This document shows, piece after piece, positions 3,333 to 20,364 of a DNA stretch of 20,613 nucleotides; within the stretch, counting starts at the first letter, position 1, and every line of letters begins with the position of its first letter. The notes beneath the pieces are model-generated. The model did no database searches, was not told where the DNA came from, and saw nothing but the letters and a program-made list of their open reading frames with translations. Both the position numbers and the translations under genes were made by a program. The DNA comes from a virus. The stretch is from the IMG/VR virus record IMGVR_UViG_3300044539_000107, positions 1 through 20,613 of that record; one strand, given 5' to 3'.

Positions 3333-6116
3333 ATGAAAGTATTAAACGCAATGCAGCTTAAAGCTGGTGCAAAATCAGAATATAACAGAATGGGTAGCAT
3401 TACCCAACCTATTCAATTTATACCACGTGCAGAAAAAGATGATGAATGGACAGCATGGAACTGTGACTGGTTAGAGTGGAATGGTCTTAAACAAATACGC
3501 AGAAATGCACGTAGGTTTATGAAAAATTATAAACTGGCTAAAGGTGTAATTGATAAAGCTGACTACATTATTGAAGAAGATAATGAGATGCGTGATCTTA
3601 TTGAGACATTGGTTCAAGAAGATACTTCTGCATTAGAACTTAAATTTTATCCTATTATCCCTAACGTGGTTAATGTACTTGTATCTGAATTTGCTAAGAG
3701 GAATACTAAAACAGTTATCCGTGGTGTAGATGAATTTACATATAATGAACAACTAGAAGCTAAAAGATCTCAAGTAGAAGATGTATTGTTTCAACGTGCT
3801 GAACAAAAATTAATGATGCAAATGATTGAACAAGGAATGAATCAAGATGATCCTGAAGTTCAAAAACAAATGCAACAACAAATGTCTCCAGAAAACATGA
3901 AGACTTTACCAGAGATTCAAACATTCTTTGATAAAGATTACAGAAGTATGTGTGAGCAATGGGCTGCTCATCAAATGAAAATAGATGAAGAACGTTTTAA
4001 AATGGATGAACTTGAAGAAAGAGCTTTCAGAGATATGCTTATTACTGATAGAGAATTTTGGCATTTTAAAATGGGTGAAGATGATTATGAAGTTGAATTG
4101 TGGAATCCAGTATTAACTTTTTATCATAAGTCACCTGATGCTCGTTACGTATCACAAGGTAACTGGGCCGGCAAAGTGGATATGATGACTATTGCGGATG
4201 TTATTGATAAGTATGGGTATTTAATGACTCAGATCCAATTAGAATCTCTTGAAGCAATTTACCCAGTAAGATCTGCAGGTTATCCGTTACAAGGTTACCA
4301 AAATGATGGATCTTATTATGACGCTACTAAGTCTCATGACTGGAATAGTAATATGCCAGGGTTAGCTTACCGTCAATTTACTTCAATGTGGGATAACTCA
4401 GTTGCACCTGGTGGAGATATTATTAACTGGATTATGGCTGAAGGAGAAGATTATGCACCAATGGGTTCTTCTTTTTTATTACGTGTTACAACATCTTATT
4501 GGAAATCACAACGTAAATTAGGCCACTTAACAAAGATTGCTGAAAATGGTGAAACTATTGTTGACATTGTTGATGAATCATACAAGGTTACTGATAAACC
4601 TGTTTACAATACCAGACTGGTTACAAATAAAAGTAAAGACAATTTAGTATTTGGAGAACACATTGATTGGATCTGGATTAATGAAGTTTGGGGTGGAGTT
4701 AAAATAGGCCCTAATCATCCTTCTTTCTGGGGTATGAATAATCCAGGAGGCATCAATCCAATGTACTTAGGTATTGATAAAAATAAAATTGGCCCTTTAA
4801 GATTTCAATTCAAAGGTGATAAAACTCTTTATGGTTGTAAACTTCCTGTAGAAGGCGCTATATTCTCTGACCGTAATACTAGGTCAACAGCTATGGTAGA
4901 TTTAATGAAACCATTTCAGATTGGATACAACATTGTAAATAACCAAATAGCAGATATCTTAGTTGATGAGTTAGGTACAATTATCTTACTTGATCAAAAT
5001 GCTTTACCACGTCACTCTATGAATGAAGACTGGGGTAAAAACAATTTAGCCAAAGCTTATGTTGCCATGAAGACTTTTCAGATGTTACCTTTAGATACAT
5101 CTATAACTAACACAGAAAATGCACTTAATTTCCAGCATTTTCAAACACTAAACCTTGAACAAACTAACCGTATGTTATCAAGGATACAAATGGCAAATTA
5201 CTTTAAACAACAATGCTTTGAGGTGATCGGTATCACACCTCAACGTCTAGGTCAGCAAATAGGTCAAACAGAGACAGCTAAAGGTATTGAACAGGCCGTA
5301 ACCGGTTCATACGCCCAGACGGAAACTTACTTTATACAACATTGTGATTACTTAATGCCACGAGTACACCAAATGAGAACAGACTTAGCTCAACATTATC
5401 ACTCAACTAAACCTTCATTAAGATTACAATATATTACAAACACTGAGGAAAAAGTTAACTTTGAGATGAATGGTACAGATTTATTATTAAGAGATCTTAA
5501 TTTATTCTGCACTACTAAAGCTAATCAACGTTCTATACTTGAGCAAATGAAACAAATGGTTGTAGGTAATAATACTACAGGAGCAACAATCTTTGATCTA
5601 GGTAATGTTATGCAGGCTGAATCCTTAGCTGAGGTTAATCATGTATTAAAAGAAACTGATAGAAAAGCTCAAGCTCAACGTCAAGAACAAATGCAACATG
5701 AACAGCAAATGGCTGAACAAGCTAATCAAACCAGATTGCAAGAAAAACAAATGGAACTTGATGCTGATGCACTTAAAGAAGAAAACCGTAACAGAACTAC
5801 ATTACTTGCTGCTGAAATTAAAGCAGCCGGCTTTGGCGCTATGCAGGATATAAATCAAAACAAGCAAAGTGATTACTCTGATGAATTAACTAAAATTCAA
5901 AGTTCAAATGAGTTTCAACAAACAATGAGTTTTGAACAACAGAAAGAAAGAAGCAAAACTATTAATGGTGCAGACAAAAACTCAATAGCTCGTGAGAAAA
6001 TGCAAACACAATTGGCCATGAAACAAATGGATATGAACATAGCTCAAGAGAACAAAAATCAATTTGATCTTAAAAAAAGAGCTCAAGAGAAAAATAAACC
6101 TAAACCAAAAAAGTAA
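3333..6116 (+). CDS. Portal protein, unusually large
   Basis: A 927-residue protein immediately after terL, where the portal ring through which DNA enters the head is normally encoded. Early motifs include WTAWNCDWLEWNGLKQIRRN at about 39-58 and LKFYPIIPNVVNVLVSEFAK at 103-122, which resemble portals of crAss-like and other large Bacteroidota phages as I remember them. A Met/Gln-rich helical insert lies at about 158-190. From about residue 774 the protein is a long Gln/Lys/Glu-rich, probably coiled-coil tail ending KNKPKPKK. Classical portals are 450-750 residues, so the excess is mostly this tail and the insert. The portal identity rests on position, size and family resemblance; I have no direct structural motif. 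Confidence 0.8.
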   Translation: MKVLNAMQLKAGAKSEYNRMGSITQPIQFIPRAEKDDEWTAWNCDWLEWNGLKQIRRNARRFMKNYKLAKGVIDKADYIIEEDNEMRDLIETLVQEDTSALELKFYPIIPNVVNVLVSEFAKRNTKTVIRGVDEFTYNEQLEAKRSQVEDVLFQRAEQKLMMQMIEQGMNQDDPEVQKQMQQQMSPENMKTLPEIQTFFDKDYRSMCEQWAAHQMKIDEERFKMDELEERAFRDMLITDREFWHFKMGEDDYEVELWNPVLTFYHKSPDARYVSQGNWAGKVDMMTIADVIDKYGYLMTQIQLESLEAIYPVRSAGYPLQGYQNDGSYYDATKSHDWNSNMPGLAYRQFTSMWDNSVAPGGDIINWIMAEGEDYAPMGSSFLLRVTTSYWKSQRKLGHLTKIAENGETIVDIVDESYKVTDKPVYNTRLVTNKSKDNLVFGEHIDWIWINEVWGGVKIGPNHPSFWGMNNPGGINPMYLGIDKNKIGPLRFQFKGDKTLYGCKLPVEGAIFSDRNTRSTAMVDLMKPFQIGYNIVNNQIADILVDELGTIILLDQNALPRHSMNEDWGKNNLAKAYVAMKTFQMLPLDTSITNTENALNFQHFQTLNLEQTNRMLSRIQMANYFKQQCFEVIGITPQRLGQQIGQTETAKGIEQAVTGSYAQTETYFIQHCDYLMPRVHQMRTDLAQHYHSTKPSLRLQYITNTEEKVNFEMNGTDLLLRDLNLFCTTKANQRSILEQMKQMVVGNNTTGATIFDLGNVMQAESLAEVNHVLKETDRKAQAQRQEQMQHEQQMAEQANQTRLQEKQMELDADALKEENRNRTTLLAAEIKAAGFGAMQDINQNKQSDYSDELTKIQSSNEFQQTMSFEQQKERSKTINGADKNSIAREKMQTQLAMKQMDMNIAQENKNQFDLKKRAQEKNKPKPKK

Positions 6117-7545: not shown

Positions 7546-9171
7546 ATGAGCACTCCAGTTTTAAACAATGGCCTCTTCCTACGTGATACGCAGTACAATG
7601 CGAGTTCACATGTAGATTCATATCACTTAGTGAATATGTTGAAAGATGCAGAACCAATGGACATGGGTCCAGTAGACATTTGGGCAATGACCCAAAAAGT
7701 TGAAATGCCTTTGTACCAATTATCATCTTTTGGTGGTAAAAACATCATCATGGTAGACAATGCCCGTGGTGAATACAAATGGCAAACGCCAGTATCTCAA
7801 GACTTAGCATATATCCTTGAAGATATTGAAAGTGAAAATGAGACAAAAGGTATTGACGGTACAACCTTCAAAATTAAAATCAACAGACGTGAATTTGGAC
7901 ATGGTGATATTATCACTTATGATAAATTCAACGGTGTTGAGATGTACATTACTGCAGATGATATCTTACCTATGGGTGATGGTTTTATCTACACAGTACA
8001 ATTAGTAAACAATGACAACTACAAATTCATGGACAACAAGTATTTAACACCACAAACTAAAGTGTTCCGTAAAGGTTCTGCTAGAGGTGAGTATGGTGAA
8101 AGATTCTCTGACATTCAGACTCGTGCTGGATTCCGTGAATTCTACAACTTCGTAGGAGGATCAGAAGCTCATGTACATTATTCTATCAGTTCTCGTGCTG
8201 ATATGATGATTAAAGGTGGAATGAATGCAGATGGTACAGTTCCTGTAACTGAGATCTGGAGAAACTTTGATAAATCAATGGATCCAGCAATCACTAAGAT
8301 TGAGGACATTGCATCAAGAATGGGTAAAGATTATTTGAAGCGTGCAGTAGGAAACGGTACTTTAACACGTACTTTCTTAACTACAATGGAAGCAGCTCAT
8401 TTAACTAAAATTGCTACAGATATTGAGACTTACTTAATGTGGGGTCATGGTGGTAAATTAAAACAAGACGGTCCAGATGACATGCGTTTATCTGTAGGTT
8501 TATGGAAACAGTTAGATAACTCATTCAAACGTGTGTACAATAAAGCTAATTTCTCTTTAGAGTTATTCCGTGGTGAGATTTATAACTTCTACGCAGGTCG
8601 TGTAGAATTTCAAGGTCCAGATCCTAAGCGTCAAGTTATTGTTCAAACAGGTATGGGTGGTATGCGTTTAGTAAATGAAGCTATCAAGCGTGAAGCTGTT
8701 AACTCAAGTTTATTAATTCAAGCTGCTAGCAATAATGGTATTGGTGCTATTACTGGTCAAGGTATGGACTTAAATTTTGGATTTGCATTTACATCTTACG
8801 TTATTCCATTCTTGGCTAACGTGAAATTTGTATTAAATCCAGCATTTGATAATTTACATACAAATGACATTGAGAACCCAATCATTGATGGTAACCCGTT
8901 ATCATCTTATTCATTCATTATCTTTGATATCACTGATACAGGAAATGACAACATCTTTATGTTGAAATTATCTTGGGATAATCAATTGAAATGGTGGTAC
9001 CAAAATGGTACTATGGATTACATGGGTCGTTCTCAAGGCTTCCAAAGTTCAGGTCAATTCAACGGTTACCGTGTGATGATGACTCAAACTATGCCAGCTA
9101 TCTGGGTTAAAGATCCAACTAAAGTGTTGAAAATTGTAATGAGAAATCCAATCACTGGAGGATCATTCTAA
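7546..9171 (+). CDS. Major capsid protein
   Basis: A 541-residue protein directly after the putative scaffold. It is mixed alpha/beta with no low-complexity parts, starting MSTPVLNNGLFLRDTQYN and ending MRNPITGGSF. Arginine is encoded 18 times by CGT and 6 times by AGA by my count, the reverse of most neighbours, which suggests very high expression. A G-rich mid-region (GMGGMRLVNEA) and a strand-rich C-terminal third would fit an HK97-type coat fold, but I cannot show that fold from sequence alone. Length is within the usual range for coat proteins of large Bacteroidota phages. The start follows an A-rich leader (AAAAACAAAAAAAAAGA) without Shine-Dalgarno. It is followed by a strong hairpin. 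Confidence 0.82.
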   Translation: MSTPVLNNGLFLRDTQYNASSHVDSYHLVNMLKDAEPMDMGPVDIWAMTQKVEMPLYQLSSFGGKNIIMVDNARGEYKWQTPVSQDLAYILEDIESENETKGIDGTTFKIKINRREFGHGDIITYDKFNGVEMYITADDILPMGDGFIYTVQLVNNDNYKFMDNKYLTPQTKVFRKGSARGEYGERFSDIQTRAGFREFYNFVGGSEAHVHYSISSRADMMIKGGMNADGTVPVTEIWRNFDKSMDPAITKIEDIASRMGKDYLKRAVGNGTLTRTFLTTMEAAHLTKIATDIETYLMWGHGGKLKQDGPDDMRLSVGLWKQLDNSFKRVYNKANFSLELFRGEIYNFYAGRVEFQGPDPKRQVIVQTGMGGMRLVNEAIKREAVNSSLLIQAASNNGIGAITGQGMDLNFGFAFTSYVIPFLANVKFVLNPAFDNLHTNDIENPIIDGNPLSSYSFIIFDITDTGNDNIFMLKLSWDNQLKWWYQNGTMDYMGRSQGFQSSGQFNGYRVMMTQTMPAIWVKDPTKVLKIVMRNPITGGSF

Positions 9172-9184
9172 TAAATCTAGGAAA

Positions 9185-9206
9185 GGGAGGAGAGCAATCT
9201 TCTCCC
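9185..9206 (+). terminator. GNRA-capped hairpin after the capsid gene
   Basis: GGGAGGAGA (9185-9193), loop GCAA (9194-9197), TCTTCTCCC (9198-9206): a nine-pair stem with one G-T wobble and a GNRA tetraloop, starting 13 bases after the capsid stop. The stem is far richer in G/C than its surroundings. No U-tract follows (TCACCTATTAA), so it is probably an mRNA 3'-end stabiliser, a processing site or an attenuating terminator rather than a full intrinsic terminator. Confidence 0.6.
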
Positions 9207-9220
9207 TCACCTATTAATAA

Positions 9221-9250
9221 ATGTCAGTCAAAAAATTAACCAACCAATAA
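9221..9250 (+). repeat. Duplicated leader element with micro-ORF, copy B
   Basis: Second copy of the leader found before the scaffold gene: ATGTCAGTCA at 9221-9230 and TAACCAACCAA at 9237-9247, spaced two bases wider than in copy A. Read as codons it gives a nine-residue micro-ORF, MSVKKLTNQ, ending at the TAA at 9248-9250, 17 bases before the ATG at 9268. Confidence 0.5.
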
Positions 9251-9267
9251 ACTTAAAACAAAAAATT

Positions 9268-10281
9268 ATGAGTGTAACAATAGTATCAACCCCGTATGAC
9301 GTAAAGAGTGGAGCAATAAGTGTAAAACCTTATTTTGATCCAACTACAAGTAACTTAGGCCTAGAAAAATATGGCTTATCACTTTATGATGGTGTATTTC
9401 ATGAAGAGCAATTAGCTTGTATAGAACGTAATGGGATTAAAAGATATATCACCGGCTTAAATGAATTTGCTCCAGAAGTAAAACTTATAGCTGATAAAGA
9501 AACTAGAGAAGCTAAGATTAAAGAAATCCGTACAGTAGTAGCACAACTTGAAAGAGAATTAGCTGCAAACATTATTGATGTAGATAGTCCTAACTTCTGG
9601 AATGAAGTAAAATTATTAAAACATGACAATGATGAATTTTGGAATAAAATTTCAATGCGTTGTGGTAATGACACTGTTCCTTTAGATCCTGCAAAAGATC
9701 CTTATGATTTAATCAAGTTATATGCAATTGAATCAGGTGGTTTTTCAATGATTGCTGCAAGTTATGATATTGCACGCACTAAAAACATAGCACCTAAATT
9801 TTATCTTGACAAATACATTAATACTGTATCCACTAAAACTGAAGTTACAAAAATCAAAAACAGAGCAATTTCTGAACTTGATAAGTTGTTTAACAAAAAC
9901 CAAAACAAGTTATTTTATATTGCTAAGTTGGTTGATGGTAATAGTGTACAGTACAAAAAATCTACACCAAATGATGTCATCTATGATAACATGGATAAAT
10001 TTATTAATGGATTAGGTATTGAGTCAAATCTTAAAAGAGCTGCACAGTCTTTCTTAGATGCTGTTGATTTAGATATGGAAACATTAAAAATCAGAGCAAT
10101 GATTAAAGATTCAACTTTTTACAAGATTCTTTCTGCAAAAGGTGATGGCTTTATTTATCATACATCAACAAATAGTCAAATGGGCCGCAACTCAGCAGAA
10201 TGTCTTGAGTACTTAAAGAACCCATTAAATGAATCTATCTTGTTAGAAATTACTAAGAAATTAGAAAAAAATTGGCAATAA
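9268..10281 (+). CDS. Uncharacterised head-associated protein
   Basis: A 337-residue soluble protein of unknown family that follows the capsid gene. The N-terminal 70 residues look beta-rich (VTIVSTPYDVKSGAISVKPY). Residues about 75-105 form a likely coiled helix (KETREAKIKEIRTVVAQLER), and the C-terminal half is mostly helical. It carries only three cysteines, unlike the later genes. The gene has its own leader and begins a short operon with the tiny basic genes, sharing the 14-base string ACTTAAAACAAAAA before its start and before the next gene. It could be a head decoration, head-fibre or internal head protein. No motif decides between these. Confidence 0.7.
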   Translation: MSVTIVSTPYDVKSGAISVKPYFDPTTSNLGLEKYGLSLYDGVFHEEQLACIERNGIKRYITGLNEFAPEVKLIADKETREAKIKEIRTVVAQLERELAANIIDVDSPNFWNEVKLLKHDNDEFWNKISMRCGNDTVPLDPAKDPYDLIKLYAIESGGFSMIAASYDIARTKNIAPKFYLDKYINTVSTKTEVTKIKNRAISELDKLFNKNQNKLFYIAKLVDGNSVQYKKSTPNDVIYDNMDKFINGLGIESNLKRAAQSFLDAVDLDMETLKIRAMIKDSTFYKILSAKGDGFIYHTSTNSQMGRNSAECLEYLKNPLNESILLEITKKLEKNWQ

Positions 10282-10298
10282 CTTAAAACAAAAATACA

Positions 10299-10469
10299 AT
10301 GGCTGGTACAATGAAAACCCAAAACAAATTCCCTGAAGTAGTGCAAAAGCCTACTCAATACAAAGGTGGTATGAATACATGTCCTACAGTAGTAACTAAT
10401 CCAACTCGTTATACAGGAGGTTTGAATAAAGCCGTTTGTGATGTACCAGCTGGTAAATTAAAAAAATAA
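10299..10469 (+). CDS. Tiny basic protein with internal repeat (56 aa)
   Basis: A 56-codon ORF beginning MAGTMKTQNK and ending AGKLKK, with eight Lys and one Arg against two acidic residues. It contains a tandem pair, KPTQYKGGMNTCP and NPTRYTGGLNKAVC (about residues 17-29 and 34-47), so the core is a PT(Q/R)YxGG(M/L)N motif duplicated at 17-residue spacing. The start lies 17 bases after the previous stop behind an A-rich leader. First of six tiny basic genes. Function unknown; it may be a packaged head protein. Confidence 0.65.
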   Translation: MAGTMKTQNKFPEVVQKPTQYKGGMNTCPTVVTNPTRYTGGLNKAVCDVPAGKLKK

Positions 10470-10473
10470 GATC

Positions 10474-10644
10474 ATGGCCGGACAAATGAAAACTGCAAAC
10501 GCTAAAGTTACAGCAGCTACAAAAGCTACTGGTAAACAACATGGTGCAAATGGTGTTGCTAAAAAGCAAACCAATATTAAAGCTAAATCTTCAGGTGGGG
10601 TAAACACTCCACCTAAAGGAGCTATACCTTCTAAGAAAAAGTAA
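10474..10644 (+). CDS. Tiny lysine-rich protein without acidic residues (56 aa)
   Basis: A 56-codon ORF four bases after the preceding gene. The product has 12 Lys, no Arg and no Asp or Glu, and is otherwise Ala/Gly/Thr-rich, ending SKKK. It starts MAGQMKTANAK, so its N-terminus matches that of the preceding gene (MAGTMKTQNK), which suggests duplication. It looks intrinsically disordered and histone-tail-like, so nucleic-acid binding is plausible. Its stop overlaps the next start in TAATG. Confidence 0.65.
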   Translation: MAGQMKTANAKVTAATKATGKQHGANGVAKKQTNIKAKSSGGVNTPPKGAIPSKKK

Positions 10645-10796
10645 TGGCTAAACCAGGATTATATGCAAATATTCACGCTAAAAAAGCCCGCATAGCAGCG
10701 GGCTCTGGCGAAAAAATGCGCAAGCCCAAAGCTAAAGGTGCTCCAACTAAACAATCATTTATTAACTCAGCTAAGACAGCTAAAAAGAAAAAATAA
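10644..10796 (+). CDS. Tiny basic protein of the NIHAK...SGEKMRKP type (50 aa)
   Basis: A 50-codon ORF whose ATG overlaps the previous stop. Core motif: GLYANIHAKKARIAAGSGEK followed by MRKPKAKGAP and a Lys-rich end (KTAKKKK); 13 Lys and 2 Arg against one Glu. I recognise this core from many small proteins or domain ends in aquatic phages, large DNA viruses and viromes, with no function known to me. Unlike its neighbours it uses GC-rich codons (GCC, CGC, GCG, GGC, CCC) and holds a perfect seven-pair GC hairpin, which suggests separate ancestry. Confidence 0.75.
   Translation: MAKPGLYANIHAKKARIAAGSGEKMRKPKAKGAPTKQSFINSAKTAKKKK
10685..10704 (+). other. GC-rich perfect hairpin inside a tiny gene
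   Basis: AGCCCGC (10685-10691), loop ATAGCA, GCGGGCT (10698-10704): seven perfect pairs, six of them G-C, preceded by six A. It is inside the coding region and is not followed by a T-tract. It stands out in DNA that is otherwise about two-thirds A/T. It may be a translation-modulating hairpin or merely a by-product of foreign GC-rich codons. Confidence 0.45.
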
Positions 10797-10798
10797 CT

Positions 10799-10948
10799 AT
10801 GGCAGATAAAAAGTGGATACAAAAAGCTACAGCTTCTATCAAAAGAAGAGGAACTGAAGGTAAGTGTACACCAATTACTAAACCAGGTTGCACAGGTAAA
10901 GCAAAAGCATTAGCTTTGACATTTAAGAAAATGGCTAAAAATAAATAA
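10799..10948 (+). CDS. Tiny basic protein of the GKCTPITKPGCT type (49 aa)
   Basis: A 49-codon ORF two bases after the previous stop. Core: KKWIQKATASIKRRGTEGKC, then TPITKPGCTGKAKALALTFK; 12 Lys and 2 Arg, with two cysteines eight residues apart in the core. I recognise this as a recurrent small viral module (W-I-Q, R-R-G-T-x-G-K-C, K-P-G-C-T) from aquatic phages and metagenomes, of unknown function. The spaced cysteines could bind metal or form a disulfide in the virion, which is speculation. Confidence 0.75.
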   Translation: MADKKWIQKATASIKRRGTEGKCTPITKPGCTGKAKALALTFKKMAKNK

Positions 10949-10949
10949 C

Positions 10950-11192
10950 ATGGCAAAAACTCCAAGCTGGCAAAGAAAAGAAGGTAAATCTCCTTCTGGT
11001 GGGTTAAACCAAAAAGGTAGAGACTCTTATAATAAAGCTAATCCCGGATCAAATCTTAAGGCTCCACAGCCTGAAGGAGGTCCTAGAAAAAAATCTTTTT
11101 GTGCTAGAATGTCTGGTGTAAAAGGACCAATGAAAAAACCTAATGGTGAACCTACAAGAAAAGCATTAGCACTTAGAAAATGGAAATGTTAA
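10950..11192 (+). CDS. Small basic SPSGGLN...KSFCARMSG...ALRKWKC protein (DUF6321-like)
   Basis: An 80-residue protein, one base after the previous stop, with 14 Lys and 6 Arg against 4 acidic residues. Motifs in order: SWQRKEGKSPSGGLNQKGR (6-24), GSNLKAPQPEGGPRKKSFCA (33-52), RMSGVKGPM (53-61) and a terminal ALRKWKC. I recognise this family strongly from cyanophages and other aquatic phages and believe it corresponds to the Pfam entry DUF6321; the entry number is from memory. No function is established to my knowledge. The Ser-Phe-Cys and the final Cys are conserved features in my recollection. Context suggests a virion-linked or DNA-binding role. Confidence 0.8.
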   Translation: MAKTPSWQRKEGKSPSGGLNQKGRDSYNKANPGSNLKAPQPEGGPRKKSFCARMSGVKGPMKKPNGEPTRKALALRKWKC

Positions 11193-11203
11193 AATAATAT
11201 ACT

Positions 11204-11374
11204 ATGAAAAAGAAACTGGCAAAAAAAGCTACAGGAGGATCAATCACTAAAACTGCAGGTAAAACTACTAGCGGTGTGATAAGCAATTATGAAAACTATA
11301 AAGCCCCTAAAACATTTGTTGGAGCAGCTCCTTCAAAAAAAATGGGTGGTTCAATTAAAAGTAAAAAATGTTAA
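11204..11374 (+). CDS. Tiny lysine-rich protein (56 aa)
   Basis: A 56-codon ORF beginning MKKKLAKKATGGS and ending SIKSKKC, with 14 Lys, no Arg and one Glu. Glycine pairs (GGS twice) flank a central aromatic part (YENYKAPKTF). Lys-rich GG(S)-bearing mini-proteins of this style occur near head genes of Bacteroidota phages in my memory. Its stop overlaps the start of the connector gene by seven bases (ATGTTAA), supporting that it is translated. Function unknown. Confidence 0.65.
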   Translation: MKKKLAKKATGGSITKTAGKTTSGVISNYENYKAPKTFVGAAPSKKMGGSIKSKKC

Positions 11375-12072
11375 ACTCAACAATACTTATAAAAGTAAAA
11401 CAACGCTTAAATAAGCTAGCCAGTAACGATTACGATAACATTCAAGACTGGCAAGTTATTGAAGCTTTTAATAAGGGTCAAGTAGATTGGTGCCGTAGAA
11501 ACTTACATGGCTTAAACATTGTAAAAGAAGGTGATGAACAATCCACTAGAAGAATTGATGATCTTCAACATTTATTAATAACTGTTAATTTAAATATCAA
11601 TGATCATAAAACTTATTATGAAAGTGTTGATATACCATTAGATTACCTTCAGTGGAAAAGAATTTCATCACAAGCTAAAAGTGAATGTTGCCCTGATCCA
11701 AAACCTATTGTTGTTTATTTAGCTGAACAAGGTAATCTTGATGAATTACTAAGAGACAAAAACAAAAATCCAAGCTTTGAATGGGGTGAAACATTTGCTA
11801 CATTTAAAGGTAATAAAATACAAATATACACAAACAATAAGTTTGAAATTGTTAACCCTACACTTACTTATTACAAACAACCCATAGGTATACAAATTGC
11901 AGGAGTACAAGATCCTTATACCGGAATAACACCAACTGTAGATGTTGAATCTAACTTTAAAGAAGATATGATTGAGCTATTAGTTGATGAATGTGCTAAA
12001 ATTATAGCTGGTGATATCGAATCTCAATTACAAATGCAAAGACAACAACAAGCTGTAGAAAATAATAACTAA
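11368..12072 (+). CDS. Probable head-tail connector (adaptor) protein
   Basis: A 234-residue protein with an N-terminal helical part (KVKQRLNKLASNDYDNIQDW, then EAFNKGQVDWCRRNLHG), a strand-rich middle (about 65-170) and a C-terminal helix (NFKEDMIELLVDECAKIIAG) ending in a Gln/Asn-rich tail. Helix, then beta domain, then a helix of the form (F)xEDxxELLVDxxxxxxAGD is the layout of adaptor/ring proteins that dock under the portal in podoviruses and crAss-like phages. It overlaps the last tiny basic gene by seven bases and is followed five bases later by the Dps-like gene. Assignment is from layout and position, not from a defining motif. Confidence 0.6.
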   Translation: MLNSTILIKVKQRLNKLASNDYDNIQDWQVIEAFNKGQVDWCRRNLHGLNIVKEGDEQSTRRIDDLQHLLITVNLNINDHKTYYESVDIPLDYLQWKRISSQAKSECCPDPKPIVVYLAEQGNLDELLRDKNKNPSFEWGETFATFKGNKIQIYTNNKFEIVNPTLTYYKQPIGIQIAGVQDPYTGITPTVDVESNFKEDMIELLVDECAKIIAGDIESQLQMQRQQQAVENNN

Positions 12073-12077
12073 ATATT

Positions 12078-12527
12078 ATGGAACAACAAAGATTTTTAAA
12101 AAGAGATGGTGGGGCAGCTGCTAAGTATAGCGCTCCAATAACAGGATCGGTAGATTCCATGACAGCTGCATGTGTATCAGAATTAATGAATGCTGCAACC
12201 GCCATCCACAAATTGCATTTAAAGGTAACAGGTGCAGGATCCTATGCTGCACATAAAGCTCTTAATGAGATTTATGATGCTTTACAAGGACATGCAGATG
12301 ACTTAGCTGAAGGGTATCAAGGAGATTCTGAGAAGTTACTTGTATATAAAGAAGTAGCACCAAAAACCTTAAATACAGTGGCTGAAGCTATTGATTATTT
12401 AAGAGAAATGTCTGAGATGGTAACAGGATTACAAGAGAAAATGCCTTACTCAGAAATAGTAAATGACTTAGATATGATTAAGTCAACAATTAACTCAGGT
12501 AAATATAAATTAATTTTCTTAAAATAA
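12078..12527 (+). CDS. Dps/ferritin-like helical protein
   Basis: A 149-residue helical protein. Residues 47-78 align without gaps to the ferroxidase region of E. coli Dps as I recall it: His47=His51, Gly52=Gly56, His59=His63, Asp74=Asp78, Glu78=Glu82, with the surrounding pattern H(x4)G(x6)H(x14)D(x3)E retained. Asp67 of Dps is replaced by Asn63, next to Glu64. Two later helices (about 96-146) would complete a four-helix bundle. The N-terminus (QQRFLKRDGG) is short and basic. In Dps the site lies between two subunits and oxidises iron inside a 12-mer shell that can also bind DNA. Short ferritin-like proteins occur in marine phages (I recall the label DUF5856, unverified). It lies between connector and major structural genes, so it may be a virion component or an iron-handling or DNA-protecting protein. 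Confidence 0.65.
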   Translation: MEQQRFLKRDGGAAAKYSAPITGSVDSMTAACVSELMNAATAIHKLHLKVTGAGSYAAHKALNEIYDALQGHADDLAEGYQGDSEKLLVYKEVAPKTLNTVAEAIDYLREMSEMVTGLQEKMPYSEIVNDLDMIKSTINSGKYKLIFLK

Positions 12528-12532
12528 ATTTG
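12525..12532 (+). promoter_or_regulatory. Candidate -7 element before the 557-aa structural gene
   Basis: TAAATTTG spans the stop codon of the Dps-like gene and matches the Bacteroidota TAnnTTTG consensus. It lies 70 bases upstream of the ATG at 12603, in a gap that also has a long A-rich leader (CTCAAAAAAACAAAAAACAAA). No upstream TTG at the usual distance is seen, so the call is weak. Confidence 0.22.
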
Positions 12533-12602
12533 GAAAAGTAATTTTAATTACATATATTAGTATTATCTATTTATTTATTAACTCAAAAAAACAAAAAACA
12601 AA

Positions 12603-14276
12603 ATGGCTTATTTCAATCATGCGTTTACTAAGATATTCTTAGGCACGCAATCCTCTACACCAGGACAACCAAATTACAATGCAAATATTAATTTAGCAAA
12701 TGGTTTTATTATTGAAGCAGGAATTCCTACAGTAGCTTTAACAACTACATTTGATGCAAATCCTGACAATGTTTATGGACCAGGATCTTATGGATTCTTT
12801 GATCCTAAAACATGGAACTCTGTTGATTCTACTTTTTTTATTGGTAGTCAATGTTGCCCATTAGTATTAGCTTCTGCATCATTATTAAAAAATGATAAAA
12901 TTGGACCTTACCATGGTGGGTACAAAGAATCTAACAAATCAAAAACAATTAATCCACGTTACATTCAACAAGTATATCGTGTTGATAGCTGTGTGCCTCA
13001 ACAATCATTAATATCAATTGGTACTACACCACAAACTGGTTCAGGTATTTTAACATTAGGTGCTACAGTATTAGGTACTGAAACTTATGTTAATGGTACT
13101 TATACAAATATTAATCTTACAGGCGGTACAGGTTCTAGTGCTAAAGCTACAGTTGTTGTAGTTGCTAATGCAGTTAGTTCTATTACTTTAACAAGTGCTG
13201 GAATAGAATATACAGCAGGTGATGTATTAACTTTAGCTAGTGCTGCAGTTGCTACTCCAGGTTCTTTAACTGAGTTAGTTGCCGGTACATCTACTACTAA
13301 AGCTGTAGCAACAGTAGCGACTACAACTAACATTGGTTTTCAAGGTGGTACAACTGAAGCAAACTGTTGTTATAACTACTTATGTGGTGAGACTTACTAC
13401 TTAAGAATTGATATCAAAGGTTCTCCTGCATTACGTTTTTTAAACCATAATGCTTACCAAACATTATCAGCTTACACAGGATGTTGTACTGGTACTGTTC
13501 CAAATAACGTTGATCCATCAACTGTATATTTAACTTGGGCTAAAGCTTTAGTTTTAAATAACTACTTAAAAGACTTAGTAGCTCCTGTAGTTTATGATTA
13601 CACTGGTGTTGCTTGGTATGCTCCAGGAACAACTGTAACTTATGATGGAACTAATGCTCCAGTAGCTGATACACAATGGTGGACTTCACCTACAGGTGTT
13701 GATCAATATGCTGCATCTGCTCAAGCTGCTGCTTGGACAAATGAGTGTACTGCAGGTATGCGTTTATTTGGTGCTTATGTTGAGACTAAATTCGGTAACT
13801 GTTCATTCCAAATTACTGACTTTTTTGAAAAAGAGCCAGTACGTTTATATGCTTCATTAGTTGATTACAATGGAGATCCATGTGTATTTGAAGGTCTTTG
13901 TGTATACAATGATTGTTTAGGTGTTCAAGGTATGGGCTTTGGTGAACAAGTAGTTCGTGACTTAATTAAGTCTGAATCTTATTTACAAAACTTCTTCCAC
14001 ACAGATATTCGTATCAGGGAGATTACGCAAGGTGATCAAATCCTTAATAGTGTTGACCGTAATGCATTATACACAAGATACTTTATCTTACATAGTGTAC
14101 CACGTTTTAACAATCCGTCAAGTACATTTGACAATGACCGTTACTTATTAGAAATTATTACTAATGGAGTAAATGCTAGTTTAGAAAGTTTCTTAGAAGG
14201 ATGGTCTGATGCTTGTCCTAATTGTGCTGTATTAGAAGAATTTAGTTGTAATCACTGTGATGTGGTAATTGACTAA
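12603..14276 (+). CDS. Major virion structural protein, probably tail or neck, with inserted beta domain
   Basis: A 557-residue protein with about 24 cysteines. Residues 1-137 and 250-557 form the core, with CCPLVLAS, CCYNYLCGETYYLRIDIKGS and CVFEGLCVYNDCLG among the Cys-bearing motifs. Residues about 138-248 look like an insert: NGTYTNINLTGGTGSSAKAT, VSSITLTSAGIEYTAGDVLT, a Gly/Ser/Thr-rich beta repeat of a type often inserted into phage structural proteins. Arginine is CGT in 10 of 13 cases, the bias shared with the capsid gene, which suggests high expression. It has its own A-rich leader and is followed by a strong terminator. A tail tube or sheath subunit would fit size and abundance, but I recognise neither fold, so I leave the exact part open. 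Confidence 0.6.
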   Translation: MAYFNHAFTKIFLGTQSSTPGQPNYNANINLANGFIIEAGIPTVALTTTFDANPDNVYGPGSYGFFDPKTWNSVDSTFFIGSQCCPLVLASASLLKNDKIGPYHGGYKESNKSKTINPRYIQQVYRVDSCVPQQSLISIGTTPQTGSGILTLGATVLGTETYVNGTYTNINLTGGTGSSAKATVVVVANAVSSITLTSAGIEYTAGDVLTLASAAVATPGSLTELVAGTSTTKAVATVATTTNIGFQGGTTEANCCYNYLCGETYYLRIDIKGSPALRFLNHNAYQTLSAYTGCCTGTVPNNVDPSTVYLTWAKALVLNNYLKDLVAPVVYDYTGVAWYAPGTTVTYDGTNAPVADTQWWTSPTGVDQYAASAQAAAWTNECTAGMRLFGAYVETKFGNCSFQITDFFEKEPVRLYASLVDYNGDPCVFEGLCVYNDCLGVQGMGFGEQVVRDLIKSESYLQNFFHTDIRIREITQGDQILNSVDRNALYTRYFILHSVPRFNNPSSTFDNDRYLLEIITNGVNASLESFLEGWSDACPNCAVLEEFSCNHCDVVID

Positions 14277-14302
14277 AATTTAATTCTTAATAACATAACT
14301 TT

Positions 14303-14345
14303 AAAAATGGAGAGTGAGAGTATATCTCTCCCTCCATTTTTTTTT
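14303..14345 (+). terminator. Strong intrinsic terminator
   Basis: TGGAG (14308-14312) pairs with CTCCA (14332-14336) and GAGAG (14316-14320) with CTCTC (14326-14330), with a small internal loop (AGT against C) and a five-base apical loop TATAT. The stem extends by A-T pairs (AAAAA with TTTTT) and ends in nine T at 14337-14345. It sits 27 bases after the stop of the 557-aa structural gene. The A-tract before the stem would let it work partly in the reverse direction too. Confidence 0.85.
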
Positions 14346-14357
14346 AATTCTCATAAA

Positions 14358-14915
14358 ATGGCACAACACGTATTAAGTCTTGAAGCACCAGATACACTAA
14401 ACAAATGTATTTTACGTGTTATAGATACAAGTATATATAATGATCAAATACCAGTAAAATGTCTTTTATTACAAATCACTTTACCTGGATTTAATACACC
14501 TGTTCAATTTACAGACCCTGATATTCAACCTGGTTTTTCATTAAACTTAACTGCTTGTGATCTTGGTGTTCAAAATGCAGGCTGTGGTACAAATTACAAT
14601 GACTTACCAGATGGTATTTATATTATTAAATATAGTGTATCACCAAATGAATATGTTTATGTTGAGTATAATCATTTAAGAGAAACTAAAGCATTAAATA
14701 AAATAGAATCCGTATATTGCGATCTAGATCTTGGAACATGTGATCCACCTATGCAGATAAAACAAAAACTTGAAAAAATACAATTTATACAACAGTATTT
14801 AAAAGCTGCTAAAGCGTATGTTGAATATTGCAGACAACCTAAAAAAGGAATGGAGCTTTATAATTACGCTGTTAAATTGCTAGATAAACTAACATGTTCC
14901 TCATGTAGAAATTAA
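14358..14915 (+). CDS. Phage structural or assembly protein (185 aa)
   Basis: A 185-residue protein starting MAQHVLSLEAPDTLNKCILR. A longer reading from an ATG at 14307 would translate the terminator hairpin and its T-tract (giving PPFFF), so I choose the ATG at 14358, 13 bases after the T-tract. An N-terminal beta domain includes LPDGIYIIKYSVSPNEYVYV (about 101-120). A C-terminal helical part (QIKQKLEKIQFIQQYLKAAK, then YVEYCRQPKKGMELYNYAV) ends in LTCSSCRN. I recognise this two-part type (LPDGIYxIKYSVSPN plus AKAYVEYC) from aquatic Bacteroidota-type phages, always among tail genes, but know no function. It could be a tail completion protein or a chaperone. Confidence 0.7.
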   Translation: MAQHVLSLEAPDTLNKCILRVIDTSIYNDQIPVKCLLLQITLPGFNTPVQFTDPDIQPGFSLNLTACDLGVQNAGCGTNYNDLPDGIYIIKYSVSPNEYVYVEYNHLRETKALNKIESVYCDLDLGTCDPPMQIKQKLEKIQFIQQYLKAAKAYVEYCRQPKKGMELYNYAVKLLDKLTCSSCRN

Positions 14916-14926
14916 TTAACTCTTTA

Positions 14927-14936
14927 AACCAACAAA
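14927..14936 (+). repeat. Partial third copy of leader block
   Basis: AACCAACAAA four bases before the ATG at 14941 is identical to 6232-6241, seven bases before the scaffold ATG. The ATGTCAGTCA block is not repeated upstream here, although the gene itself starts ATGTCAACT. Possibly a shared translation-enhancing leader; the string is short and A-rich, so chance is possible. Confidence 0.25.
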
Positions 14937-14940
14937 GAAA

Positions 14941-15102
14941 ATGTCAACTTGTTCAAATTGTAAAAAAACATTATCATGTGGCTGTCAAAAACGTACAGCA
15001 AGTAATGGTCAAAGCGGATGCGCATCATGTATAGGAACACTTGAAGCTGCAGCAAAAATGATTAAACCTGTTCCTACCAGTATTTTATATCAAAAAAAAT
15101 AA
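14941..15102 (+). CDS. Small zinc-ribbon-like Cys-rich protein (53 aa)
   Basis: A 53-codon ORF starting MSTCSNCKKTLSCGCQKRTA, with six cysteines: Cys4-x2-Cys7, Cys13-x-Cys15 and Cys27-x2-Cys30. The paired spacing suggests zinc binding. The C-terminus (LEAAAKMIKPVPTSILYQKK) is a helix plus a tail. I recall the CSxCxKTLSCGCQKR motif from aquatic phages of the same kind, near Cys-rich tail genes. It follows the 185-aa gene by 25 bases with an A-rich leader and precedes the 1216-aa gene by six. It could be a small tail component or a chaperone for the Cys-rich neighbours; neither is proven. Confidence 0.7.
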   Translation: MSTCSNCKKTLSCGCQKRTASNGQSGCASCIGTLEAAAKMIKPVPTSILYQKK

Positions 15103-15108
15103 TTTATT

Positions 15109-18100
15109 ATGGCTGTTTGCACCTGTTTTTGTTGGAGAGTACGTTTTGTAAACGAGTCTGGAGGACCTGTTCCAACATTTACTTTTAAATATAAAAGTTG
15201 TGAAACAGGTTTAGATATATATGTAACTGTTCCACCTACAACTCCTTATGTAGATATTTGCTCTCAAGGATTAACAGGTATGTCAAGTAGTTTTCCTCAA
15301 CTTATTTCTCCACCAAATATTCCTCCTTATGCATTCCGTTGGGATCCTGCTAATACAGGCTACACTTTGGTAAATTGTAGTAATCCTGCTGATTCTTTTG
15401 TTACAAGCATTTATATGATAAATCTTAATAACTATGTAGGTTCAGGAAAAGCTTTACAACTAGCGGATCGTCCAGGATGTTGGTATGTTGCATCTACTGG
15501 TGTTGTATGTTATTCAGATGCACAACCTGTAACAATAACAACGGAATTTGCAAGTTGTGTAGAATGTCTTGATGCTTTACCTTGTTATTTACTTACTAAT
15601 TGTAATCCATTAGCCGTACCTGCTACAATAATTACAAGTACTGATTTATTTCTTAATCTAAGTTCAGTAGTTACATTAGTAGATCTTTCCGGTTGTTGGA
15701 CAGTATCTGCATCACCAACATGTGAAGGTTCTATTCCTGTTACAGTTATACAATCTTATACTAATTGTGAAACGTGTACTCAAGAATATGTAACATTTGT
15801 ATCATGTTGTGGTGGATTTGAATTACATTTTGTAAGAAATTTAGTAACTGTACCAACATACTTAGTCAACAATACAGTATACGTTTACAACGGTTCTTTA
15901 TATACAGATGGTATTAATACCATGTATCCAGGCCAATGTTACACGTATAAAAATACGTTTAGTTCTAGTTTACTACCAACGTTTGCAGTACCTCCTTTTG
16001 TTAGTTTTACATCTACAAGTGTTACTACAGGTAACTGTGCTAATGTTGTTACTCTATGTGATCATTGCTTTTATAAATTAACTAACTGTGATATTGATAA
16101 TGATGTAATTTACACTTACACAGATTTATCTCAAAGCGTAGGAGAAATTATAACAATTACAGGTTATCCTAAAATATGTTGGATAGTTTCAGAATCTGAT
16201 ACAGCTATACTTCCTGTTGTTGTTACACCAGTAGGTATAAATTATAAAACATGTCTTGATTGTAAAGGTTATTTTTTTACAATAAATGATTGTTGTACAG
16301 ATGAACCTTATTTAGTTAATAATGTTCCTTTAGTATTAGAGTATCATGGTGATTCAAATCCGGGTTTTTCTCCGGTTGATTTAAGTACTCAGATTATTAC
16401 AACTATTAATTTAGCTAATGGTAACTCAATTACAGGTTGTTTTTATATTGTTGATATTACAACTGCAGGTAGGTCTAGTGTAGCACAAAGTCAAATAGTA
16501 GTTGATTGGGATACAGATCTTGAATTTGTAACAGTACCAACTTGTGAAGATTGTCAATCATGTAAAACTTGTTATTTATTAACAAACTGTGTAACTGGAG
16601 AAGTTGAATACATTACAGGAACAGATTTAATTCAATATATTGGTGGAGTAATTACTATTAAAGGTTGTAAAGATCAGTGTTGGATTGTTACTCAAGCAGA
16701 AAACTGTGATGGTTGTGGAGGTGCTGTAACTGTATTAAGTTATTTTCCTAACACTGATCCAGCTGTTGGTAAAATATGCACATATACACTTACTGACATA
16801 AATTTTACTATTACAAGTGGAACTATTGTTATTGATGGTGTTACATATCCTTTAGTTATCACATCTTTTTCAAATTTAATAACGTCCATTAATGCTTTAG
16901 GTTTAGGTACAGCATATATTAGTACTAGTGGTACAAATGTTTTAATAGGTATTGTTGGTGATTATGTTTATGGTTCTATATGCCTAATAGGTAATGATGA
17001 TGGAACACCTATTACAAATTGTTTTACACCTGTTTGTACTAACTATATAAATAATTGCACATATTCAGTTTTAACTTTAATAGATTCATCAATACCTGAT
17101 CGTAATGTAACAATTACTATTAACGGTATTGTACATACAACATTATTAACTTCAGCTAATATAAGTAAATTACTTATTTGGTTAAACTCATTAGGGCTTG
17201 GTTTTTTTACAGCAAATATAGTTGGTGCTAATTGTACTATTCAAGTTTTTGGTAATGCCACATATGGTAATATTGTTATAGATAGTGAAATTGTAACAAC
17301 ACTTACAACAACTTGTACAACAATAACAAGTAATCCTTGTGACTTATGTTTACCACAACCTATACCTGAACCACCAGTAGTTTTAAATACTAGATTTGTT
17401 AAACCCGGTTACAGTACACCATCTTGTTCTCCTGAATATACTGAAAGAGTAAACTGTAATTATGGTGATCAACTTTATAATAGAATGCTTTCAGTAAGAT
17501 ATGGGTTAACTGTATGTTGTGATGAAGCCTTTGATAAATGGTTAATTAAAAAAGAATTACTTGACTTAACCTCATTAAAAAATACTGAGTTTGATTGTTG
17601 TCCTCCTATAGCGCCTTGTAACGTGTGTAATACACAAGAATGTTGTTGTGTAGTTATACCTGTATTACCTGTAGAACCTTGTTCTTTAATTTGTTATTCA
17701 GCTCAATTATTTTGTGATAATAGAATTTCTTGTACATTAGTATATGCTGATTGTAATAATACATTTGAATATATTATAGTATTACCTGGGGAGTCTCTTA
17801 ATACATATATATGTTCATCCATATTACCAACGTTTAGTAGTAATAATATAATAACTCCTTTGTTATTAGATTGTGCTGCAGGAGATTGTGCAGCACCTTT
17901 ACCATGTGTTACTACATGTTATAAAGTAACTTTTAGTTATACTGGACTTCCTACATTATATAATTATTTTAATTGTGCAACAGGTATGAATGTTAGATCA
18001 GCTACTACTGGTGGTACATTATACATATGTTCAGGTATAATCCCAATTGGTCCTTCTATAACAAATGTTGTTGCTTTACCTAATGATTGTGCTGCTGGAT

Positions 18101-18759
18101 TATGTGTTGCACCTCCTCCATGCTTTTGTTGGTCATTCAATATACCTAAACAACCAGAGCCATTACAATTTACATATGATACATGTGATGGTATACCTGT
18201 TACTATAAATGGAGTATATAATAATATATCAATGTGTTCTCCTGTACAACCAATGTATACAGGAGGACTAGCCTTCGGAATTAATTCAGGTGTATGTTTT
18301 GCAGATTGTGGAATTCTTGAAAGTCCTGTTTGTCAATGTTATATAATTGAAGTTACTTCTTCAGATGCATCTATAGCAGATGTAGATTTTAATATTTATC
18401 CTTGTGATTTACCAGCTACAGATATAAAGGTAACTTCATTGAGTGGTCCTGCATATGGCTGTTTTAGTTTTTGCCCTATTATTGTAACTAGTACACCTAA
18501 TGCAATAGTTACAATAACAATAAGAAATGATTTAGATTGTACTGTAGGAGAATGCGTAGCTCCACCTCCATTATTATGTGTATGTTATGTGATAAATACA
18601 GATAGACTTACCGTAATAGACTACACAGATTGTGAAGGAAATTCTTTGTCGTTACCTGTAGAAGCTGGATCATTTAGTATATGTTCATTAACAGTGCCTA
18701 CAACTGATGTACCAGCAGAAAAAATTGAAACAGCAACTCCTTGTAATTTGTGCATATAA
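15109..18759 (+). CDS. Very large Cys-rich modular tail/appendage protein
   Basis: A 1216-residue protein with about 91 cysteines by my count (7.5%) and few charges. Modules in order: an N-terminal CxCxCW unit (4-80); CYxLTNC...CWxV...CxxC units starting near 85, 159, 320 and 488, the last three in longer repeats with a second half (EYVTFVSCCG at about 226, GYFFTINDCC); two tandem beta units near 557 and 650 (INGxxY...LNSLGLG); a helical core with VKPGYSTPSCSPEYTERVNC (764-783) and WLIKKELLDLTSL (about 813-825); and five C-terminal units starting near 862, 937, 1007, 1077 and 1159. I recall the VKPGY...KKELLDL core from many aquatic phages, among tail genes. No signal peptide or transmembrane segment is seen. 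Probable role: baseplate or tail-tip adhesin scaffold. Confidence 0.7.
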   Translation: MAVCTCFCWRVRFVNESGGPVPTFTFKYKSCETGLDIYVTVPPTTPYVDICSQGLTGMSSSFPQLISPPNIPPYAFRWDPANTGYTLVNCSNPADSFVTSIYMINLNNYVGSGKALQLADRPGCWYVASTGVVCYSDAQPVTITTEFASCVECLDALPCYLLTNCNPLAVPATIITSTDLFLNLSSVVTLVDLSGCWTVSASPTCEGSIPVTVIQSYTNCETCTQEYVTFVSCCGGFELHFVRNLVTVPTYLVNNTVYVYNGSLYTDGINTMYPGQCYTYKNTFSSSLLPTFAVPPFVSFTSTSVTTGNCANVVTLCDHCFYKLTNCDIDNDVIYTYTDLSQSVGEIITITGYPKICWIVSESDTAILPVVVTPVGINYKTCLDCKGYFFTINDCCTDEPYLVNNVPLVLEYHGDSNPGFSPVDLSTQIITTINLANGNSITGCFYIVDITTAGRSSVAQSQIVVDWDTDLEFVTVPTCEDCQSCKTCYLLTNCVTGEVEYITGTDLIQYIGGVITIKGCKDQCWIVTQAENCDGCGGAVTVLSYFPNTDPAVGKICTYTLTDINFTITSGTIVIDGVTYPLVITSFSNLITSINALGLGTAYISTSGTNVLIGIVGDYVYGSICLIGNDDGTPITNCFTPVCTNYINNCTYSVLTLIDSSIPDRNVTITINGIVHTTLLTSANISKLLIWLNSLGLGFFTANIVGANCTIQVFGNATYGNIVIDSEIVTTLTTTCTTITSNPCDLCLPQPIPEPPVVLNTRFVKPGYSTPSCSPEYTERVNCNYGDQLYNRMLSVRYGLTVCCDEAFDKWLIKKELLDLTSLKNTEFDCCPPIAPCNVCNTQECCCVVIPVLPVEPCSLICYSAQLFCDNRISCTLVYADCNNTFEYIIVLPGESLNTYICSSILPTFSSNNIITPLLLDCAAGDCAAPLPCVTTCYKVTFSYTGLPTLYNYFNCATGMNVRSATTGGTLYICSGIIPIGPSITNVVALPNDCAAGLCVAPPPCFCWSFNIPKQPEPLQFTYDTCDGIPVTINGVYNNISMCSPVQPMYTGGLAFGINSGVCFADCGILESPVCQCYIIEVTSSDASIADVDFNIYPCDLPATDIKVTSLSGPAYGCFSFCPIIVTSTPNAIVTITIRNDLDCTVGECVAPPPLLCVCYVINTDRLTVIDYTDCEGNSLSLPVEAGSFSICSLTVPTTDVPAEKIETATPCNLCI
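15361..16773 (+). repeat. CYxLTNC module repeats within the 1216-aa protein
   Basis: Four diverged copies begin with YTLVNC (base 15361), CYLLTNC (15583), CFYKLTNC (16066) and CYLLTNC (16570). Each runs through a TDLxxxxG segment, a (G/I/Q)CW(Y/T/I)V motif and, in copies 1-3, a closing CxxC (CVEC, CETC, CLDC); copy 4 has CDGC. The last three are about 160-168 residues apart because each intervening segment adds a Y-x-TF-(S/N)-x-CC half-unit. The repeats are at protein level; nucleotide identity looks low, so they are old. Confidence 0.7.
17692..18756 (+). repeat. Five tandem C-terminal Cys units within the 1216-aa protein
   Basis: Units start at codons for CYSAQL (17692), CYKVTF (17917), CWSFNI (18127), CYIIEV (18337) and CYVINT (18583), 57-82 residues each. 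The pattern is C(Y/W)-beta strand, a (D/N/Y)C in the middle, an (I/M)CS or CF(S)F(C) near the two-thirds point and a linker such as DCAAGDCAAPLPC, DCAAGLCVAPPPC or DCTVGECVAPPP. The N-terminus of the same protein (CWRVRFV...CETG...DICS) looks like a sixth, separated copy. Confidence 0.7.
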
Positions 18760-18807
18760 ACTTGTAAATAAGAAAAAATAATTGTATATTAATAATAAAT
18801 TTGTAAT

Positions 18808-20364
18808 ATGAAACCATTAAATAGTGATAACCCAGGATGCAATCCAATATCTTCCAATTGCGTAATATGGCAAGGTCCTGATATTGCTTGTATTAACTTG
18901 TGTAAAGGAGATACAGTAAGTGATGTTGTATATCAAGTTGCTACTGAATTATGTAACGTACAAAGTATGTTATCATTAGCTGATGGTAATTATAATATAT
19001 CATGTTTTAATTTAACATCTTGTTTACCATCTGATTTTCAAGAATTAATAAACTTATTAATAAGCCGTATTTGTAATCTTGAATCTTGTACAGGTTGTGC
19101 ACCAGCTTGTGATGGTACTTTTCCTACACCTATTCCAGCACCAGCTAATGGATGCCCTGATTGTGAAATGACAATTGCTCCATGTTTTGAATACATAGAT
19201 GGTATTGGTGATACAATAACAACATTACAATTAAAAGATTATGTTACTGCTATAGGAAATAAGATATGCAACTTAATTTTAACAAATAACTTAACGGATA
19301 CGGCTATAACTACTTTAGTTGCCAGAGTTGATACTTTAGAAACCCAAGTAACAATAATTGAAGATACTCAATACATTCCTCCTAGTGTAACACCAGTATG
19401 TGTTTTACCTTCTGTACCGACTGAAATGAATTTAGTTTTAACAGCTTTAGAAACTCAGTTTTGTACTTTAAGATATGCTACAGGAACAGCAACAGATTTA
19501 TATTTAAACATATCTAAACAATGTGCTGGTTTAGGAACATCTCCTAAGTTAGCACCAGGCGGTGGACCTATGGCCGCTATACCAGGTTGGTCAAACACTG
19601 TTGATAATTTAGCTCAATCTTTTGGAAACATGTGGATTACTTTATGTGATATAAGATCAGCTGTTCAAAATATTCAAGTTAATTGTTGCCCTACTGGATG
19701 TAGTGGTATTGTTCTTAATTTATTTGCTTCATTAAATTTAGATACTAATTACTTATCAATATATGTAAATGGTACAATTCCACCAGAACTTACACAATGT
19801 ACAGGTAATACAATGATTAAAATTACAGATTCTTCTGGTAATTCAATCACTACTACGTATGATATGATTGCTAACTTAAATTCTTTATTAGGTTATGGTA
19901 TTGCATTAAACGGAACGTTAATTAATACAGCTTTAAATTTAACTATAGAAATACAACCTTGTTTAACTAATCTTAGTACAGGTACTACATGTGAATCATG
20001 TTTAGAATATGTATTAATTAATACACCGGCCTGTCCAGTTACATCAATTGTACCATTATTTAATTCAGCTACATTTGGTTTTACATCAGCTGCTGGAACA
20101 TTTACTTATACAGTAGAAGTATGGGATGCTTTATTTTCAACACTTATTTCTACATATACTATAGTAACAACAACGGCTGCTGGACAAAGTGTAACAATTA
20201 CAGATTTAGAAGGTTCAACTACATATGGTGTTAGACTTACAGTTGTAGCAACAGGTTCAACAGCAACACCTGTAATTTGTCCATTTACTACATTTACTAC
20301 ATATCCTGATTTTTGTTATCCTCCATCAGCAATTATAGTAACAGCATCAGTAATACCACTTTAA
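18808..20364 (+). CDS. Cys-rich appendage protein with fibronectin III-like end
   Basis: A 518-residue protein. The N-terminus holds NCVIWQGPDIACINLCKGDT at 17-36, then a helix with Cys pairs (ISRICNLESCTGCAPACDG) and a Pro/Ala linker. A coiled-coil-like part (ALVARVDTLETQVTIIE type, about 170-190) suggests a trimeric fibre. A Gly/Pro-rich stretch (LAPGGGPMAAIPGW) follows. Residues about 295-385 resemble the beta units of the 1216-aa neighbour (YVNGTIPP...ANLNSLLGYG). Residues about 408-495 look like a fibronectin type III domain (TYTVEVWDA, TDLEGSTTYGVRLTV). FN3 domains are common on phage surface proteins and may bind carbohydrate. I infer a tail-fibre or adhesin role. The gap of 48 bases before it holds nothing clear. 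Confidence 0.65.
   Translation: MKPLNSDNPGCNPISSNCVIWQGPDIACINLCKGDTVSDVVYQVATELCNVQSMLSLADGNYNISCFNLTSCLPSDFQELINLLISRICNLESCTGCAPACDGTFPTPIPAPANGCPDCEMTIAPCFEYIDGIGDTITTLQLKDYVTAIGNKICNLILTNNLTDTAITTLVARVDTLETQVTIIEDTQYIPPSVTPVCVLPSVPTEMNLVLTALETQFCTLRYATGTATDLYLNISKQCAGLGTSPKLAPGGGPMAAIPGWSNTVDNLAQSFGNMWITLCDIRSAVQNIQVNCCPTGCSGIVLNLFASLNLDTNYLSIYVNGTIPPELTQCTGNTMIKITDSSGNSITTTYDMIANLNSLLGYGIALNGTLINTALNLTIEIQPCLTNLSTGTTCESCLEYVLINTPACPVTSIVPLFNSATFGFTSAAGTFTYTVEVWDALFSTLISTYTIVTTTAAGQSVTITDLEGSTTYGVRLTVVATGSTATPVICPFTTFTTYPDFCYPPSAIIVTASVIPL

Follow-up and report, generated by a model that had tools for sequence, protein, structure and literature searches.

What a relative of the Dps mini-ferritins might be doing among the virion genes of a phage is the question raised by a gene at 12078..12527 (plus strand) of the window, by which we mean the whole stretch of 20,613 nucleotides analysed here. 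This gene runs from ATG to stop and encodes 149 aa. The genes around it, all on the plus strand, include the terminase large subunit (TerL, 1116-3326) and the portal (3333-6116), which fix a Crassvirales-like module order, then the major capsid protein (7546..9171, assigned by homology), the ring (neck) protein (11368..12072), which ends 5 bp before the Dps-like gene, and g12603, a module protein of 557 aa (12603..14276). Ring gene and g12603 are thus the left and right borders of what we call the slot. csAssE-Sib and Cellulophaga phage phi4:1 have the same succession of TerL, portal, one gene, capsid, one gene and ring. The ring protein is homologous to the csAssE-Sib ring protein (E 2e-10), to a protein of Leptolyngbya phage Lbo-JY46 and to phi4:1 gp062 (E 6e-15), the last being recorded as a virion protein by MS/MS proteomics; the terminase matches those of crAss-like and Flavobacterium phages. 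Since the capsid protein has only 21-28% identity to those of phi4:1, gut crAss-like phages and Lbo-JY46, the phage, with related capsid, terminase and ring proteins in the order TerL-portal-capsid-ring, is by its homologies a Crassvirales-related virus, and an outlying one. In phi4:1 and csAssE-Sib the ring gene directly adjoins the next structural gene with nothing between, and g12603 has no homology to that next gene in either phage. When 9150-14350 was scanned for promoters and terminators, about as many were counted as in shuffled sequence, and these counts are given no weight here. Two further features were seen. Just upstream of the ring gene (10299-11374) lie five small, very basic ORFs (16-30% K+R, 0-5% D+E), which could be DNA-condensing or packaged proteins; that at 10950-11192 is a DUF6321 member (E 1.4e-25), and the others have no Pfam match. 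Downstream, the proteins of 14307-20611 are strikingly rich in cysteine (91 in 1216 aa at 15109-18759, 29 in 518 at 18808-20364 and 6 in 53 at 14941-15102), for which metal binding or disulphides are candidate reasons.

The case for a metal site begins with the spacing of the ligands. H47, H59, N63, D74 and E78 of the window protein are separated by steps of 12, 4, 11 and 4 residues, the same as for H51, H63, D67, D78 and E82 of E. coli Dps, and a HMMER alignment places them opposite H25, H37, E41, D52 and E56 of HP-NAP. On these two comparisons the reading made in an earlier note, that H47, H59, D74 and E78 are ferroxidase-type ligands at Dps spacing, is borne out. Profile searches agree with it: the DUF5856 profile (PF19174) is matched with E 6.8e-15 and a score of 56.3 bits, the curated cut-off being 34.6, PF00210 (Ferritin) with E 9e-4, under its curated gathering score, and in PHROG phrog_858, named 'starvation-inducible transcriptional regulator', with E 1.6e-21. 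With these three matches, and with the predicted fold and the invariance of the ligands described below, the pattern is more than chance. Relatives were then collected by a pattern scan of IMG/VR, which gave 446 stretches encoding them, and the ligands were aligned in 133 distinct slot sequences together with 10 other DUF5856-type sequences, including T4-like rI.-1, small podoviruses, a 635-kb phage and a portal-side type. A loss of the four ligands was looked for and none was found: H47, H59, D74 and E78 are invariant in all 143, and H44 is nearly so. The position equivalent to E. coli D67, where Dps proteins have an Asp or Glu as fifth ligand, is Asn in the window (N63); the earlier remark that this one ligand is replaced also applies to the family, with Asn in 118 and Gly in 15 of the 133 slot sequences, and therefore a second metal site may be weak. 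The window protein's own residue D67 is a different position, being Asp in 131 slot sequences and Glu in 2. The glycine noted between the two histidines is there as G52, though 7 of 81 relatives have D (G in 74), and G54 is invariant among the 81.

A functional metal site is the simplest cause of the invariance of the four residues. This bears directly on another reading, by which the fold has been reused as a structural part or a regulator, the ligands being a relic and no iron chemistry taking place. The adjoining virion genes are in its favour, as is the PHROG name, which is an annotation by similarity, yet relic ligands would be expected to drift, and these are unchanged across T4-like phages, small podoviruses and the present lineage; it also leaves unexplained the swaps with ferritin described below, and why some related phages have no such gene altogether. 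We regard it as the least probable of the readings considered here.

The predicted fold points in the same direction. An AlphaFold2 monomer model built from 39 relatives has a mean pLDDT of 85.9 and is a four-helix bundle (helices 25-49, 55-84, 101-121 and 125-147), with residues 1-20 under pLDDT 50. Dps proteins head the Foldseek PDB ranking. By VIA-align the closest solved match is M. smegmatis Dps2 (Z 16.6, rmsd 2.1 over 126 residues), E. coli Dps has Z 15.0, the Dps matches overall lie at Z 14-16.6, and ferritin-like bundles outside Dps reach Z 15.3 and below. A fold other than a four-helix ferritin bundle would have spoken against the earlier note; the bundle is what the monomer prediction gives, with mostly Dps proteins as best matches. 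Because other ferritin-like bundles score up to Z 15.3, membership of the ferritin superfamily is, on the model, sure, and a place on the Dps branch only likely. A short BC helix at the dimer interface is a usual Dps feature; the monomer model, which does not include the dimer interface, has no helix at residues 85-100 where it would be. With the D67 ligand absent and no BC helix modelled, the window protein cannot be filed as a canonical Dps, and a dodecamer is putative. Besides, three BFVD proteins of uncultured phages annotated 'Prohead protease' (A0A6J7WIS1, A0A6J7XDU5 and A0A6J7WPK9) contain a stretch matching the model, which would fit the fusion of such a domain with a protein of head assembly.

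The place of the gene among structural genes, which had been called unusual, turns out to be a strictly conserved site beside the ring gene: when relatives are fetched with the Dps-like protein, almost every one has the genes in the order ring, Dps-like, g12603. Among loci fetched by the ring or the capsid protein, 42 are without a Dps-like gene; the majority of these have a ferritin of 174-209 aa in the same place, and the remaining ones are empty, with 74-102 nt from ring to g12603. Overall, 249 loci were classified, 204 with the Dps-like gene (a count inflated by the many loci fetched with the Dps-like query), 28 with ferritin and 17 empty, and in none of the 249 does an unrelated gene replace the occupant. 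The less biased samples, which partly contain the same contigs, are the ring-fetched one, with 51 Dps-like, 12 ferritin and 12 empty of 75, and the capsid-fetched one, with 22, 14 and 5 of 41. On 12 Dps-less contigs, which may be incomplete, DUF5856 has no match elsewhere and PF00210 matches only in the six with a ferritin slot. Two other observations concern single contigs. IMGVR_UViG_3300042526_000402, of 135,860 bases, has two copies (L106 and L151) of the capsid-to-g12603 module, 83-89% alike, probably a chimeric assembly and possibly a duplication. The only match of the Dps-like family in the genome collection (L420, 2030-2458) keeps the order ring, Dps-like, g12603 and sits on a phage contig binned with a Sphingomonadaceae MAG, which we do not take as evidence that Sphingomonadaceae are the host.

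The alternative occupant is, by its sequence, a canonical ferritin with a complete ferroxidase centre. It matches PF00210 with E 2.8e-25 and solved bacterial ferritins with E 5.8e-25, and its residues E60, E93, H96, E138, Q171 and E174, invariant in 16 of 16 sequences, correspond to FtnA E17, E50, H53, E94, Q127 and E130. Its model has four long helices and a short fifth (47-77, 80-106, 127-154, 158-188 and 192-206). Scanning with the ferritin alignment left 80 loci; in 69 the gene directly follows the ring gene, and in the others it precedes TerL or stands between the portal and capsid genes. Ferritin and Dps-like gene stand in tandem in the ring slot of L360-L362 and L412, and in the portal-to-capsid region of L386, L411, L413, L414 and L417. 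In close relatives, then, the slot is either empty or occupied by a Dps-like gene, by a canonical ferritin or by the two in tandem, and from the swaps and the tandem pairs the two genes are sometimes alternatives and sometimes partners. Compared profile to profile, the Dps-like and the ferritin alignment reach a probability of only 9%, and the kinship of the two therefore rests on fold. No bacterial source of the phage ferritin was found in genome contigs by close patterns.

These states have changed many times. On the ring-protein tree the three states need at least 18 changes, and the ferritin state alone 13 for 16 rows, with 8 being imposed by branches that are well supported; a capsid tree, as independent evidence, calls for at least 23 among four states (both trees being quick ones), and two sets of identical capsid proteins come with differing slot states. 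Near-identical phages can differ at the slot alone. L321, which has a ferritin, and L322 share 86% identity along the 9.6 kb upstream, part ways in the slot and become similar again before g12603. L200, which is empty, and L023, which is Dps-like, are 95-97% identical on either side of the slot, and since L200 retains a remnant of the last Dps-like codons, its empty state is a loss. The existence of phages with an empty slot means that its function is helpful, not essential; the empty slots in the two samples, with the L200 remnant, count against a required virion part.

Both occupants begin with a similar leader. In the window it is a basic, disordered N-terminal segment (MEQQRFLKRDGG..., 12078..12137, plus strand), corresponding to the low-pLDDT residues of the model, and the slot ferritins also start with a basic leader of low confidence. 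The mean net charge over the first 20 residues is about +2.4. A strict motif, [LIV][KQS][RK], is present near the N-terminus in 126/132 Dps-like proteins and 16/18 ferritins, as against 0-20% of the sequences of each other module gene having at least 10 sequences. A looser motif was dropped for this strict form, as it was also found in 62% of g12603. FtnA and several DUF5856 relatives are without an N-terminal extension. The leaders of ferritins and Dps-like proteins of related phages do not co-vary significantly (mean percentile rank 0.54, p 0.076), and co-evolution with a docking partner, as judged from leader detail, was accordingly ruled unestablished. Detailed sharing is confined to recent swaps, where the common DNA runs 3-35 nt into the gene, that is, into the leader, and recombination alone can explain it. 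A docking tag, a DNA-binding tail or passive hitch-hiking would all fit the leader.

The DNA-binding possibility leads to the reading of the protein as a DNA-compacting one, in which the main task of the cage, or of its basic leader, is to bind phage DNA and the metal site matters less. E. coli Dps has a lysine-rich tail, comparable with the basic leader here, and a run of very basic small ORFs is nearby. Such a role, however, leaves unexplained both the invariant metal ligands and the swap with a ferritin having a full ferroxidase centre, and in the ferritins the leader precedes a long linker; we consider it very unlikely.

We favour, with some confidence, a cage of Dps type that is made late and oxidises and stores iron, and that is interchangeable with ferritin. 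Iron handling had been proposed from the ligands; it is now better supported than the earlier reader could know, because relatives hold a true ferritin in the same slot and some have both genes, a replacement that strongly implies iron handling as far as sequences can tell. The gene's position 5 bp behind the ring gene suggests that the mini-ferritin would be made late in infection, alongside the virion proteins. Its subunits would form a hollow cage in which, as in Dps, Fe2+ would be bound where two subunits meet, by H47 and H59 from one and by D74 and E78 from its two-fold partner, and the cage would oxidise the iron with O2 or H2O2 and store the ferric mineral. Iron and peroxide could in this way be removed around new DNA and virions, or iron be hoarded. 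The basic leader, common to both cages, might direct either of them to a shared target, be it phage DNA or a module protein; what the phage needs would be an iron cage, not one in particular, and some phages would manage without.

A virion-borne iron cage, a placement that the earlier note had also considered, differs from this late-made cage by its site, the chemistry being the same: inside the head, or docked by its leader at the neck, it would have virions carry iron or protect their packaged DNA. The gene is always within the run of virion genes, the neighbouring ring protein is homologous to the phi4:1 protein detected in virions, the leader motif is frequent in both occupants and rare in most other module genes, small podoviruses have a DUF5856 gene immediately behind the portal gene, and crAss001 virions contain cargo proteins in head and tail, according to a structure paper that mentions neither Dps nor ferritin (PMC10172136). 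The empty slots, the lack of significant co-variation in leader detail and the DpsA of a gut crAss-like phage, which sits outside the structural module, all stand against it, and we hold it to be conceivable but rather unlikely. A bolder form takes the leader as a constant virion-docking part and the cage as an exchangeable plug-in, so that these crAss-like phages would exit the cell with a mineral-loaded cage on or in the particle; this we consider unlikely.

With the Dps mini-ferritins (E. coli Dps, HP-NAP, M. smegmatis Dps2) the window protein has in common the four-helix bundle and the H, H, D, E spacing, and E. coli Dps likewise has a basic N-terminal leader. Unlike them, it has Asn or Gly at the D67 position in its family, no BC helix in its model, structural-alignment identities of 12-14% and a gene within a phage structural module. 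FtnA, the bacterial non-haem ferritin, is the canonical form of the alternative or tandem occupant; it belongs to another branch of the superfamily than the Dps-like protein, with an intrasubunit centre and a fifth helix, and the phage ferritins differ from it by their added N-terminal leader. Genes of the ferritin superfamily are also carried by Gratiaviridae, by Lactobacillus phages, where the Dps genes are near replication genes, and by the gut crAss-like phage cr106_1, whose DpsA is in a tRNA cluster; for these three we found no fixed virion-module slot or ferritin exchange described. Dps genes in phages are thus not new (PMC8008677; PMC6669764). What is new is the fixed slot with its Dps-like/ferritin exchange: in the open-access literature searched we came upon no account of Dps-like and ferritin genes standing in for one another at a fixed place in the virion module, nothing on DUF5856, and on phage or viral ferritin a single paper, reporting that giant viruses encode ferritin (PMC7136201), so that viruses may quite generally have to control iron while they are produced. 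Dps genes in phages have been viewed as loosely attached auxiliary genes that help against oxidative stress. That two distantly related kinds of ferritin-superfamily protein swap repeatedly in a slot among virion genes argues more strongly, as far as is possible before an assay, for selection on iron storage itself. The idea that iron is carried by phage particles, proposed by Bonnain, Breitbart and Buck (2016, as cited in PMC11705849), also gains a concrete object in the slot family, which makes phage iron handling or carriage testable.

Within DUF5856 and phrog_858 themselves, the T4-like phages (rI.-1), Krischvirus and small podoviruses have members of the same family with the four ligands in common, while the slot, the ferritin exchange and the leader of this lineage were not found there; the T4-like members, unlike the window gene, are in non-structural regions. 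In the small podoviruses MW202483 and MW202640 the DUF5856 gene is directly behind the portal gene (L162, 6031-6393; L164, 5917-6339), a second structural-module position for the family, in unrelated phages.
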